From Gammaproteobacteria bacterium (lineage in GTDB: Bacteria; Pseudomonadota; Gammaproteobacteria; Xanthomonadales; SZUA-5): a stretch of 33,305 nucleotides of DNA. The number at the start of each line of letters is the position of its first letter. Position 1 is the first letter of the stretch. Of this stretch, positions 868 to 27,499 are shown piece by piece. Location of the stretch: the NCBI GenBank assembly GCA_030430155.1, contig JAUIFV010000035.1, positions 1-33,305 of the forward strand, read 5' to 3'. The translations under genes and the position numbers were made by a program. Under the pieces are notes generated by a model. It saw nothing but the letters and a program-made list of their open reading frames with translations. It did no database searches and was not told the DNA's origin.

Positions 868-906
868 CCTGTGCCCTGTGCCCTGGGCCCTGGGCCCTGT
901 GCCCTC
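868..906 (+). repeat. GGGCCCT-type heptad array, about 5.5 units
   Basis: Five consecutive 7-base units of the form CCTGKGC (K is G or T), followed by a partial unit, beginning 11 bases after the amgK stop. The same heptad family recurs near 5.9, 6.1, 6.25, 8.2, 9.05, 9.15, 20.99 and 27.4 kb. Here the unit reads GGGCCCT on the coding strand, the opposite of the orientation seen at the other stop codons. Confidence 0.85.
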
Positions 907-910
907 CAAA

Positions 911-953
911 CCTGCGTGATTCAGTGTGCAGCGGGGCACACTGAACCACGCAG
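911..953. repeat. Hairpin at the left edge of the palindromic element
   Basis: The sequence cctgcgtgattcagtgtgc (911–929) is followed after six bases by gcacactgaaccacgcag (936–953). The arms pair over 18 bases with one mismatch. The 911–929 word is repeated exactly at 1095–1113, giving 19-bp direct repeats around the element. Confidence 0.8.
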
Positions 954-1113
954 CCGGCCGCGCCGCGCGAGCGCGGCCCTTGCGGGTTGCGGCCCACATC
1001 GCCCACCGCGTCGTTGCAGCCCTCGGGCGTAGAATGACTACGCCTTTCGGGACTGCGCCTAGCGGTGGACGATGTGGACTCGCAACGCGGCTCGCCTGCG
1101 TGATTCAGTGTGC
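936..1113. repeat. 178-bp imperfect palindrome (MITE-like) inserted between amgK and murU
   Basis: The outer arms 936–953 and 1096–1113 are inverted copies. Inside them, the left segment ending cccacatcgcccaccgc matches the reverse complement of gcggtggacgatgtgga on the right, and the centre is ggcgtag–aatga–ctacgcc (1026–1044). The left arm (97 bp) is longer than the right (76 bp) by a GC-rich stretch. No transposase is encoded, so if mobile it would be a non-autonomous element; a REP/MITE-like family is the likeliest class. It interrupts an otherwise compact recycling operon. Confidence 0.7.
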
Positions 1114-1203
1114 CCCTTGGGTAAATTTCTTTATCGGCACATGCACTTGAGAGGCGAAAAAGCCTAGTTTGTGCGCTATGGATTTCACACGTAGACAACC
1201 TGC

Positions 1204-1872
1204 ATGAAGGTGCTGATTTTCGCCGCTGGGAAGGGGGAGCGGCTGCAGCCGTTGACCGATAGCGTGCCCAAGGCGCTGGTGCCGGTGGGCGGTAGGCCGT
1301 TGATCGTGCGCCATCTGCAGCGGCTGGCCGCGGCCGGTCTGCCGCAGATTGTGATCAACTGCGCCTATTTACGTGACGTGCTGCGTGATGAGATCGGCAA
1401 TGGTTCGCGCTGGGGCGTGCGCATCCGCTGGTCCGATGAGGGCGACGAGGCGCTTGAAACCGGCGGCGGCATGCTCAACGCGCTCCCCCTGCTGGGCCGT
1501 GACCCCTTCATCGGCCTCAACGCCGACATTTACACCCAGTACGACTTCAACGAACTGCGTGATCGGCCGGCCGGGCTGGCTCACCTGGTGCTGGTCCCCA
1601 ATCCGCCGCACAACCGCCGCGGTGACTTCGCACTGGAAGACGGCCAAGTGCTCAGCGTGGCCGCCGGGCGGCTCACCTTCGCAGGTATCGGCGCCTACCG
1701 GCCGGAACTGGTCGAAGGCTATAGGCCCGGTGCCTTTCCGCTGGCACCGGTGCTGCGTACTGCCATCGCGCATCGTCAGGTCAGCGGCGAGTACTACGAA
1801 GGCGCCTGGTACGACGTCGGCACTCCGGATCGGCTCGCCGAAGTCGATGAGGTTGCCACCCACGACGGCTAG
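1204..1872 (+). CDS. murU: MurU, N-acetylmuramate-1-phosphate uridylyltransferase
   Basis: Nucleotidyltransferase that joins UMP to MurNAc-1-phosphate, making UDP-MurNAc without de novo synthesis by MurA/MurB. The 222-residue length matches known MurU proteins. The N-terminal signature GKGERLQPLTDSVPK (residues 9–23) is the sugar-nucleotidyltransferase phosphate loop. LETGGG (84–89) and the metal-binding LNADIY (D108) follow as in the GlmU/RmlA-like fold. It begins at the first ATG after a long intergenic stretch. amgK upstream supplies its substrate. A generic glucose-1-phosphate thymidylyltransferase label is possible from sequence alone, but length and neighbour favour MurU. Confidence 0.88.
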   Translation: MKVLIFAAGKGERLQPLTDSVPKALVPVGGRPLIVRHLQRLAAAGLPQIVINCAYLRDVLRDEIGNGSRWGVRIRWSDEGDEALETGGGMLNALPLLGRDPFIGLNADIYTQYDFNELRDRPAGLAHLVLVPNPPHNRRGDFALEDGQVLSVAAGRLTFAGIGAYRPELVEGYRPGAFPLAPVLRTAIAHRQVSGEYYEGAWYDVGTPDRLAEVDEVATHDG

Positions 1873-1910
1873 TCGGACACTGGCGCTCCATCAAGCGTTC
1901 TCGGCCGTCC

Positions 1911-25670: not shown

Positions 25671-26012
25671 TATCGCGCCTTTGCCAAATCCATCGCACAC
25701 GATACCAAGCGCCGCCTCAGTCGTATTGGGCTGAAGATGCGCGTCCAGTCAATTCGCAACAACTGCGGACGCCTGACACGGCTTTCACAGCTTACCTTCC
25801 CTGACTATCGCCAGCTGCTCGATCCAGCTGCAAATCGTTCCTCTGTAGTTCTACACCGTCTGGGTCTCTCGCGGCGCCGTGGAAGGCTGCCCGAGGCGCT
25901 GATCTGTGGGAGGATGAGGGCGTCGGGGTCGCTGGCTGCGTTGGCACATGCACGCGGCGCGGCGATTGCTGGCAGTATCAATTCCAAGCCCGACCGCTTT
26001 GGTCCACATGTC
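25671..26012. other. Divergent gap between hydrolase and dioxygenase genes
   Basis: 342 bases with no recognised repeat or gene. The dioxygenase frame stays open right through it and far into the antisense of the hydrolase gene, but its translation is Arg/Ser-rich and featureless. An in-frame ATG at 25914, with gggagg just before it, is a possible earlier start. Promoters for both genes should lie here; I could not assign one. Confidence 0.5.
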
Positions 26013-26738
26013 ATGAGGTGGATTTCCGCGCCAAGTTCCAGTCCGCAGGTCAACCTTGAGACCGAGCGACGGACGGTACCGCCGTGGCTGGCCGAGTTGC
26101 ACTGTCGTGGGTACAGCATAATCAGCGGTGTGCCCTGCGCCGCCGACAACCACGCTCTGCGTGAGATCGGTGCCGTACTGGGCGAGCCATCGCTGCGCGC
26201 GCTCAGCCCACACCCGCTGCTACGTGAGCCCCACGGCGTACAGCGGGTGCAGGCGCTGAAACAACCCAGCAAGAACCGATTCGGCCGCCGCCTGCGCTCC
26301 AGCGACGCCGCTGGTTTCCCATTGCACAGCGACGAGGCCTTCCTGCCCGACCCGGCGCGCTGGGTGCTGCTGCACTGCTGGCAGGCCGACCCCGCCGGCG
26401 GCGGCGCTAGTCTGATCTGCGAACGGCAGGCGCTCATCGACGCGGCCTCACCGGACCAGATCGACGCCCTATACGGACATCAACTGCGCTACCCCTGCGG
26501 CCGCTTTGCCGTGCTTACGGATCGGCTAGTGCGCTTCAATGCAGACGACTACCGGATCGAAAACAGCGCGGACCGGCAATGGGTGAATGAAGTGGTGGAT
26601 CTGGCGCAGCGTAGCGCCATCGAGATCCTGCTGCGCCCGGGCGATTGCCTGATCATCGCCAACCAGCGCTGCCTGCACGGCCGCCGCCGCTTTGCGCCGG
26701 ACTCGCCGCGGCTGCTCAAGAGGCTGCGCGTTGTCTGA
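26013..26738 (+). CDS. TauD/TfdA-like Fe(II)/2-oxoglutarate dioxygenase
   Basis: A 241-residue oxygenase of the TauD/clavaminate-synthase-like fold. The iron triad reads H105 and D107 in FPLHSDEAF and H222 in CLHGRRRF, with an Arg shortly after (R224–R226) for 2-oxoglutarate. GDCLIIANQRCLHGR is the usual C-terminal core. Such enzymes hydroxylate small molecules; nothing here identifies the substrate. The start at MRWISAPSSSPQ is uncertain, since it lacks a good ribosome site and the frame is open far upstream. It is divergent from the triple-hydrolase gene and 111 bases before coaD. Confidence 0.75.
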   Translation: MRWISAPSSSPQVNLETERRTVPPWLAELHCRGYSIISGVPCAADNHALREIGAVLGEPSLRALSPHPLLREPHGVQRVQALKQPSKNRFGRRLRSSDAAGFPLHSDEAFLPDPARWVLLHCWQADPAGGGASLICERQALIDAASPDQIDALYGHQLRYPCGRFAVLTDRLVRFNADDYRIENSADRQWVNEVVDLAQRSAIEILLRPGDCLIIANQRCLHGRRRFAPDSPRLLKRLRVV

Positions 26739-26849
26739 TTCTGAAGTCACAACGACGGACGCGCGTGAGAGGTGGCGCCTGTGGTCTGGGAAACTCCCCC
26801 CGCCTTTCGGCTACCCTATGCCCCCGACCACACCGACCCCTAACGGCCG

Positions 26850-27353
26850 ATGAGTCCGACCTACAACCCGCGCGTTGCCGTCTATCCCGGCACCTTCGAC
26901 CCGATGACCAGTGGCCACGTCGACCTGATCAAGCGCGCCTCGCCGCTGTTTGAGCGGCTGATCGTAGGCGTTGCCGACAATCCGGCCAAGAGTCCGGGTT
27001 TCGATCTCAACGAGCGGATCGAAATGGCGCAAGCGGCAACCAGCGGCATCCACAACGTCGAGGTGATCGGCTTCGACGAACTGCTCGCGCAGTTCGTGCG
27101 CAAGGTCAACGCCAAGGTAGTGCTGCGCGGACTGCGCGCGGTGTCCGACTTTGAATACGAGTTCCAGCTGGCCAGCATGAATCGCCACCTGATGCCGGAC
27201 GTGGAAACCATGTTCCTGACCCCGGCCGAGCAGTTCAGCTTCATTTCCTCCTCGCTGGTCAAGGAGGTGGCGCGGCTGGGCGGCGACATCACCGGGTTCG
27301 TGCCGCCGGCAGTGGCTGCGGCGTTGAAGGCGAAGTTTGCTGGTCAGGGCTGA
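26850..27353 (+). CDS. coaD: Phosphopantetheine adenylyltransferase
   Basis: Penultimate coenzyme A biosynthesis enzyme, transferring AMP from ATP to 4'-phosphopantetheine. The 167 residues match the family (about 160). The nucleotidyltransferase motif is [14 protein letters not shown] (14–27, with H23), [13 protein letters not shown] (about 92–104) is the family core, and [16 protein letters not shown] carries the ISSS loop. The stop codon lies inside the first AGGGCTG unit of a heptad array, so the last two residues (QG) come partly from repeat sequence. Confidence 0.96.
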
Positions 27354-27390
27354 GGGCTGAGAAGGGCCCAGGGCCCAGGGCTTAGGGCCC
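27346..27390 (+). repeat. Heptad array overlapping the coaD stop
   Basis: Two AGGGCTG units (27346–27359) contain the coaD TGA. After three bases follow AGGGCCC, AGGGCCC, AGGGCTT, AGGGCCC (27363–27390). It faces the opposite-sense array at 27429–27499 across a 38-base spacer. Confidence 0.88.
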
Positions 27391-27428
27391 AGGGAAGCAG
27401 GAGCCAGAGCGCGATCTGCTGTTGATTT

Positions 27429-27499
27429 TCTGGGCCCTGTGCCCTGGGCCCTGGGCCCTCCTTCCCTGAGCCCTGGGCCCTTTTCCCTGGGCCCTAGCA
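27429..27499 (-). repeat. Heptad array, inverted partner of the coaD array
   Basis: About ten 7-base steps, mostly CCTGGGC, with cctgtgc, cctcctt, cctgagc, ccttttc and cctagca variants and one single-base slip at 27464. The GGGCCC core is complementary to the array at 27346–27390, so the coaD transcript could form a long stem here. Confidence 0.85.

Follow-up and report, generated by a model that had tools for sequence, protein, structure and literature searches.

Inverted heptamer-repeat elements at gene ends of a gammaproteobacterium of the order Xanthomonadales

Results

A family of inverted elements built from seven-base units was found dispersed between the genes of a gammaproteobacterium of the order Xanthomonadales (SZUA-5; genome G000), with members in the 33,305-nucleotide contig JAUIFV010000035.1, hereafter the window (contig C261 of the 5.06-Mb assembly GCA_030430155.1 with 287 contigs). 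A typical element consists of an arm, most often of four 7-base units, an AAGAGC-like box, a variable loop, the mirrored box and the mirrored arm, with GGGCCCA as the main word. In the explanation which we favour, at a probability of about one half, these are copied, non-autonomous short interspersed inverted elements, whose arms are homogenised within the genome and which are retained at gene 3' ends with a likely structural role.

Seven-base periodicity between genes

Counts were made on a sample of 932,545 bases (18% of the genome), comprising the window and 60 further contigs or contig parts of the same assembly, 11 of which were taken from a list of pattern matches and the remainder by running number. 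Gene calling with a codon-pair script yielded 793 genes in this sample, with 87% of it being coding. With a run defined as a 21-base window with at least 16 matches at a given lag, lag 7 gave 176 intergenic versus 13 coding runs. At each of lags 4–6 and 8–12 there were 0–2 intergenic runs, and lag 13 had 10; lag 14, a harmonic of lag 7, had 125. Intergenic identity at lag 7 was 0.297, compared to 0.265 (standard deviation 0.0013) in 20 dinucleotide shuffles.

Exact-unit blocks were collected without presetting a word, by scanning for any 7-mer present in three or more exact copies, where one variant unit was tolerated between neighbouring copies. None of the 153 blocks obtained was inside a gene, i.e., had its middle more than 30 bases from the gene ends, and a looser two-unit scan returned 7 arms in 753,135 coding bases. 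On the whole 5.06-Mb assembly, CTGGGCCCTGGGCC at up to 2 mismatches gave 1524 + 1353 matches, compared to 35 + 53 for the reversed control.

The first-pass annotation of the window had described degenerate seven-base arrays scattered between genes, a claim that would conflict with a lacking lag-7 excess or with equally frequent arrays inside coding sequence. Both outcomes were examined on the 18% sample; the claim survived, and the dispersed, 7-base-phased family between genes is confirmed for the sampled parts. Its statement that phase is kept despite divergence holds for the array at 6232–6289; the array at 27430–27495 includes one 8-base unit (3% indels according to Tandem Repeats Finder, TRF). 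The inverted pairing of arrays and the further words GTTTTAC/G and a 13-base word are features beyond that annotation.

Unit number and the internal variant

Among the 153 blocks of any word, 104 had four units with one internal variant, 15 had four perfect units, 18 had three perfect units and 16 were of other composition. For the main word (n = 116), four units with one internal variant were present in 97 blocks, the others being perfect four-unit (6), three-unit (6) or longer (7) blocks. As the scan forces an exact unit (X) at both block ends, a terminal variant unit (v) would appear as three perfect units; internal variants (97) are thus set against at most 6 terminal ones (p = 3e-22). In the sister species G001, 24 of 27 blocks had four units with one internal variant. 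Point-mutated units, which had been taken, together with variable copy number, as a sign of ongoing expansion by slippage or copying, do exist; they are non-random, being internal and retaining GGG but not CCC. Unit number and variant placement disfavour slippage as the main process, which is not supported, and 97 of 116 main-word blocks follow one four-unit design.

Arms in AGGGCCC orientation lie on the left of an element (left-type) and those in GGGCCCT orientation on the right (right-type). In the oriented count, which demands perfect first and last units, the 91 single-variant arms of G000 (53 XvXX and 38 XXvX, beside 6 XXXX and 2 XvvX) had a variant unit retaining GGG in 84 cases, CCC in none and the linking A in 90. 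The 20 such arms of G001 kept GGG in 17 and CCC in none, with no XXXX; the 14 of G031, from another family, kept GGG in 13 and CCC in one, beside 5 XXXX. The non-palindromic word GGGCTGA presented 7 perfect versus 2 variant four-unit blocks (Fisher 1.5e-6 against the main word). Some perfect runs of 5–9 units were found for the minor words GGGCTGA, GGGCACA and GTTTTAC, which fit local expansion.

The perfect GGGCCC arm had a predicted RNA folding energy of −25.1 kcal/mol, two variant arms had −22.9 and −19.8 kcal/mol, and four GGGCTGA units had −8.2 kcal/mol. With quadruplexes allowed in RNAfold, a quadruplex was predicted to be favoured for GGGAATC arms and, by 0.2 kcal/mol, for GGGCTGA arms. 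Over the three genomes, variants made of C and T only were commoner in XXvX (28/47) than in XvXX (20/78; p = 2.7e-4), XXvX being the arrangement in which a self-hairpin would place the variant opposite GGG. A within-arm hairpin as the only constraint fits these C/T-only variants, but GGG is kept in 36 of 38 XXvX arms, although a self-hairpin would put the first of these Gs into the loop; therefore, a strand-specific factor is needed, and the hairpin as sole constraint was rejected.

Arm pairs, inner box and loop

Arms of the different words were scanned, those of GGGCCCA and GGGCTGA at 1 mismatch, because at 2 mismatches the palindromic word matches both orientations. Arms were present in 132 of 480 intergenic regions. 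For neighbouring arms within 150 bases, the convergent orientation '><' dominated (68 pairs), compared to 18 '<<', 12 '>>' and 6 '<>', and one word was shared by both sides in 65 of the 68 pairs (permutation mean 47.6). Loop lengths of 71 main-word elements fell into 55 of 12–48 bases and 16 of 80–128 bases.

The inner box conforms to A[AG]AGC or AA[AG]GC on the left, with its mirror on the right, and is sometimes extended to GATCAAGAGC. Within 22 bases of the arm, it was detected on the inner side of 106 and on the outer side of 13 of 251 arms, random intergenic windows giving 7.6%; for arms of words other than GGGCCCA, the counts were 38/77 and 1/77. Among 38 GGGAATC arms from 30 loci in other families of the order, the box was inside in 16 and outside in 3 (p = 0.001). 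The box is not universal, as evident from the eight GGGCTCA or GGGCACA arms of G001, none of which has it.

A selected long hairpin between the arms was considered and is not supported, since neither the units nor the boxes of the two sides covary. An assembly artefact was considered and rejected; arms lay within 150 bases of 6/88 contig ends (6.8%), compared to 3.3% of random windows (one-sided p = 0.07), and a mild assembly bias against perfect arms may exist.

Placement at gene ends

Elements favour gene 3' ends in the order convergent, tandem, divergent. Among intergenic regions of at least 50 bases, blocks occupied 34/81 between convergent, 50/260 between tandem and 10/118 between divergent genes, and the median distance from the stop codon was 31 bases in the 50 tandem regions. 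Canonical terminators were found in 8 of 151 3' regions with an element and in 7 of 283 without, revealing no mutual exclusion; on these counts, the elements were rejected as intrinsic terminators, in which a T-tract follows the hairpin, or as terminator replacements.

Conserved slots and exchanged words

Occupancy of orthologous intergenic regions (slots) was compared with G001 and with a second sister species, G002. In 44 regions shared with G001, 12 were occupied in both genomes, 3 in G000 only, none in G001 only and 29 in neither (p = 2e-8); 29 of the 33 G001 stretches had been chosen for GGGCCC matches, which favours shared slots of the GGGCCC word and cannot produce the 0/29. Against G002, 8 regions gave 3, 1, 0 and 4 in the same categories (p = 0.14), and a single region examined against G004 and a single one against G008 were empty on both sides. 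The word itself can differ: in 15 slots common to G000 and G001 or G002, the words were the same in 7, mixed in 4 (window 8111–8298 in both relatives, window 20801–21014 and L066:13530) and without a common word in 4. The last are GGGCCCA versus GTTTTAC in G002 at window 8967–9181, GTTTTAC versus the 13-base word in G001 at window 18127–18332, GTTTTAC versus GGGCACA in G001 at L012:15719, and GGGCTGA versus GGGCCCA in G001 at L019:11377.

Genome-wide, GGGCCCTGGGCCCTGGG at 2 mismatches gave 781 + 728 matches in G000, 113 + 118 in G001 and 254 + 253 in G031 (control 0–2), and at most 11 per strand in the other 38 genomes searched. When 369 genomes sampled from the class were searched at 1 mismatch (G001 and G031 not among them), 13 had a match, with more than 3 only in G000. 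Three GTTTTAC units at 3 mismatches were matched 75 times in G000, 50 in G002, 22 in G008, 7 in G007, twice each in G001 and G005 and never in three others. The 13-base word was counted 54 times in G000, 47 in G001 and 34 in G002, with none in six other genomes of the family. Three GGGAATC units at 2 mismatches had at least one match in 69 of 299 genomes of the order; in G000 there was none, forward or reverse (reversed control 8 + 1). Whereas G000, G001, G031 and G008 have many elements, G003 and G006 seem poor in them, judged by counts of four words and a reading of 20 kb in each.

Behind coaD, the 260 bases of 29 other genomes of the order, G002 included, contained no 7-base run, leaving the G000 locus as the only one; in coaD loci of named genomes, 5 runs of 7-base phase in 80 loci were detected among the matches listed. 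The best of these named coaD matches are from Alkalisalibacterium, Arenimonas, Rhodanobacter, Lysobacter and others, which places the genome in Xanthomonadales (Lysobacterales).

Further heptamer arrays were encountered. (GGGTCCC)n, which served as the reversed control, forms abundant heptamer arrays of its own in G004, G008, G021 and G030, with 54–115 matches per strand. In G008, three arrays (GAGTCCC, GTGCCCC and GACAACC) are joined end to end at L086:6138–6426, with TTGGTTG on the other side. In contig L252 of the low-GC gammaproteobacterial metagenome-assembled genome MC-11, the AT-rich arrays TTCACAA, TAATGGT and AATAGTG lie at 3282–3308, 4965–4989 and 9144–9164, and from these it may be that heptamer arrays reach beyond this order.

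Loop subfamily and transposase search

Similar loops were detected on L043, L050, L057 and L073 (90.6–100% identity over 20–37 bases); the loop is entire on three contigs and partial on L057, and the flanks differ by eye. From similar loops within differing flanks, it therefore appears that elements moved as units. As for miniature inverted-repeat transposable elements (MITEs), the target-site duplication that defines them was found in none of 46 elements, and the assignment was dropped.

A Y1 transposase search gave a match in 8 of the family's 9 genomes. That of G000 is flanked by GTAGGAGC...GGCTCCTAC palindromes, the classical layout of repetitive extragenic palindromes (REPs) with a REP-associated tyrosine transposase (RAYT). 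A second dispersed repeat of ~177 bases, ending in AGCCCGCATTATTCATGAA and its mirror and MITE-like in look, has 92–97% identity between the copies listed (L015:5975–6333, L015:16398–16829, L022, L075, L052, L010 and L046).

Elements of the window

Array spans in the window were taken from TRF, those given here being part of its list; Rfam yielded no family match above gathering score. A paired element lies behind coaD: two GGGCTGA units at 27347..27360 (+; TRF 27346–27361) contain the coaD stop codon (27351–27353) and are followed by a left arm of exactly four units (GGGCCCA twice, GGGCTTA, GGGCCCA) at 27364..27391 (+; TRF 27363–27394) and a right arm of exactly four units with the variant GGGCACA at 27431..27458 (−; TRF 27430–27495), beyond which degenerate units continue to ~27495. 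The left arm at 9035..9062 (+; TRF 9034–9064) likewise has exactly four units (GGGCCCA twice, GGGCATA, GGGCCCA), with three units matched in its right arm at 9162..9182 (−; TRF 9161–9183), and a GTTTTAC element occupies the slot in G002.

Both boxes are present in the element at 18138–18320, where a left arm of four GTTTTAG/GTTTTAC units (28 bases, 18138..18165, +; TRF 18137–18168) is followed by GAGAGC (18169..18174, +), the mirrored box GCTCTT (18285..18290, −) and a right arm of four units (28 bases, 18293..18320, −; TRF 18294–18321); in G001 this slot is filled with the 13-base word, in G002 with GTTTTAC. Four perfect GGGCTGA units (28 bases) form the left arm at 20866..20893 (+; TRF 20842–20895), the right arm at 20989..21009 (−; TRF 20983–21010) being of mixed words with three units matched; in G001, GGGCTGA is on both sides. 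A left-type arm of the GGGCCCA word with five units lies at 8191..8225 (+; TRF 8190–8247); further on, the inner box GCTCTT (8260..8265, −) precedes a right-type arm of the 13-base word with units of 7 + 6 + 7 + 6 (8266..8292, −), and G002 has a paired element of the 13-base word in this slot.

Less regular arrangements were also found. A right-type arm of five units lies at 6240..6274 (−; TRF 6232–6289) between two convergent genes, whose ends are at 5920 and 6291; near it, a right-type arm at 6085..6121 (−) alternates as X-v-X-v-X, which TRF reads as period 14, and a small degenerate element at 5923..5971 (no strand assigned) has one left unit, a 28-base loop and two right units. In 6002–6270, a 147-base unit that contains GTCACCCCGGC...GCCGGGGTCCAGTGAC and ACTGGGTCCCGGC...GGACGAC palindromes is repeated 1.8 times and is fused to GGGCCC arms. 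A single right-type arm, GGGCCCA read on the minus strand, was located at 870..904 (−; TRF 868–905), 13 bases past the stop codon of a gene whose end is at 856. Just behind this arm lies CTGCGTGATTCAGTGTGC with a near-mirror copy, and a third copy is found further on (912–953 and 1096–1113). A GTAGGGTGGGCAAAGCGAAGCGTGCCCGCC-type repeat at 16892–17007 has further copies in the genome.

Discussion

In the explanation favoured here, whole elements or arms would be copied within the genome, with REPIN-like (REP doublet forming hairpins) non-autonomous copying and ectopic gene conversion spreading and overwriting them, and the genome would thereby drift to one dominant word. Copying is suggested by the one loop subfamily, homogenisation by the one dominant word of G000 together with the different words at shared slots, and a structural role by placement and G-tract polarity. 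The elements would persist at 3' ends because they do no harm in that position and probably serve as structured ends. In RNA or single-stranded DNA, a main-word arm could form a G-quadruplex or a hairpin on its G-tract strand (GGGN4 × 4); there, the internal variant would weaken the self-hairpin of the palindromic GGGCCC word and spare the four G-tracts.

Several results weigh against this explanation. Regarding mobility, the 71 elements yield few similar loops (14 pairs, of which some lie at one locus and one stems from another repeat), no target-site duplication was detected in the 46 elements, whose direct-repeat lengths were as in permuted flanks, and no linked transposase was found, the one Y1 match of G000 (L200, G000:C187) sitting among GTAGGAGC-type repeats. 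Regarding design, 109 unpaired arms stand beside the 68 pairs, and the box pattern was defined post hoc from G000 examples, with only the GGGAATC set testing it elsewhere. When the 142 arms of the 71 elements were counted from the inner unit, 57 had four units of which a single internal one was variant (unit 3 in 35 arms, unit 2 in 22), 3 were perfect, 4 deviated at unit 4 only and 78 fell outside these classes, with deviation in at least two units or in the inner unit; a looser count found four units in 72 of 142 arms, and the four-unit design is the most frequent form without being a strict rule. The rule is weaker in G031 (14 of 31 blocks with an internal variant, 5 perfect four-unit, 7 three-unit). 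Regarding structure, covariation was found neither between left and right units (p 0.42–1.0) nor between the two boxes (p 0.85 and 0.20), RNAfold with quadruplexes allowed predicted the hairpin to be preferred for GGGCCC arms, and GTTTTAC arms are without a G-tract, so the quadruplex part fails for them.

Known repeat systems share parts of this anatomy. REPINs and bacterial interspersed mosaic elements (BIMEs) are inverted doublets with a spacer, extragenic, present in many copies and copied as units. The G000 elements have the inverted doublet, the spacer, the extragenic location and the many copies in common with them, and apparently also the copying as units; they differ by heptamer-built arms, by self-complementarity being optional (GGGCCC is self-complementary, GGGCTGA and GTTTTAC are not), by having no GTAG-type foot that was noticed and by having no linked RAYT that was found. 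The short tandemly repeated repetitive (STRR) heptamers of cyanobacteria are 7-base phased and intergenic. Nearest to these are the Nostoc GGGGA(C/T)T repeats, which, according to the available text of Rehm et al. (PMC4692102), form only few inverted pairs, unlike the G000 elements.

The first-pass annotation knew of no gammaproteobacterial equivalent, and this has to be revised, since heptamer families have been published for Xanthomonas (GGGNATC) and Beggiatoaceae (TAACTGA). As far as the available text of Rehm et al. 2015 goes (PMC4692102), GGGAATC/GGGNATC repeats of two Xanthomonas genomes form 70 and 75 convergent inverted pairs, have four units as the mode, and are intergenic and near stop codons, with quadruplexes proposed; 83% of the repeats of the genome designated Xcc are at the same place in that designated Xac, most Xac repeats are transcribed, and repeat lengths differ between species. 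On that text, a G-rich 7-base unit, the four-unit preference with intact G-tracts, convergent inverted pairs, intergenic location near stop codons, rarity between divergent genes and slots conserved across species are common to both systems, and GGGAATC arms, i.e., of the Xanthomonas-type word, often carry the AAGAGC-like box in genomes of the order (inside in the 16/38 given above). Unlike Xanthomonas, G000 has GGGCCCA, which does not match GGGNATC, several different words within one genome, a single internal variant unit that lacks CCC, and word replacement at orthologous slots; neither an inner box nor a comparable variant rule is described in the available text. The Beggiatoaceae repeats, also gammaproteobacterial and intergenic, are direct (one indirect), lie mostly just upstream of start codons and use one word, unlike the G000 elements, as far as the available text of MacGregor 2015 (PMC4679880) goes. 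We conclude that the family is a known kind of gammaproteobacterial repeat, of the Xanthomonas type, in an unusually orderly, changing version. To the extent of the open-access literature searched, in which they were not found, the box common to several words, the four-unit arm with one strand-polar internal variant and the different words at inherited slots are new.

Alternatively, the elements might be selected, non-mobile RNA or DNA structures of 3' ends (G-quadruplexes or hairpins in termination, mRNA stability or insulation of convergent genes), with function keeping the arms similar, which we regard as unlikely, if still worth serious weight. The 3'-end bias, the four G-tracts retained on one strand, slot conservation, the excess of C/T-only variants in XXvX arms and, in the available text of PMC4692102, the slot sharing and transcription of the Xanthomonas repeats speak for it. 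Against it stand word replacement at orthologous slots, even by words without G-tracts, similar loops at distant loci, the terminator counts without mutual exclusion and the elements in divergent regions.

Doubtful as well is a genome-wide rewriting, where slots are fixed over species time and a templated process overwrites the arms in them with whichever heptamer the lineage currently uses, typically in four units. If true, hundreds of intergenic arms would switch their word in concert, as a bacterial counterpart to the turnover of satellites or telomere repeats, and a dedicated copying enzyme or template RNA may be used.

Arrays of binding sites for a heptamer-reading chromosomal DNA- or RNA-binding protein would explain the preferred unit number and spacing and the strand-polar conservation; such a protein is expected to hold the word constant, yet several words occur per genome and differ between species at one slot, and we consider this improbable. 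More improbable still are classical REP/REPIN doublets moved by a RAYT (Y1) transposase, to which the two inverted arms with a spacer, the many extragenic copies and the self-complementary main word, predicted to fold, conform; the other words are not self-complementary, and the single Y1 match of G000 is flanked by another repeat instead. Replication slippage growing and shrinking microsatellite arrays can account for the perfect 5–9-unit runs of minor words and for interspecies length differences as given in the available text on Xanthomonas (PMC4692102), but is the least probable given four preferred units with a single internal variant, only 7 of 116 main-word blocks exceeding four units, inverted partners with the same word, a common inner box and words that differ while the slot stays.

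These findings unite scattered reports of "heptamer simple sequence repeats" in one anatomical class of inverted arms, most often of four units, with an AAGAGC-like box, in several families of one order. Within it, design and slot can be constant even where the word is not. Predictions can be drawn from the strand-polar variant unit, which retains GGG but not CCC and is a specific signature. Why the unit has seven bases, why arms have four units, what copies the elements and what role they play at gene ends become testable questions.

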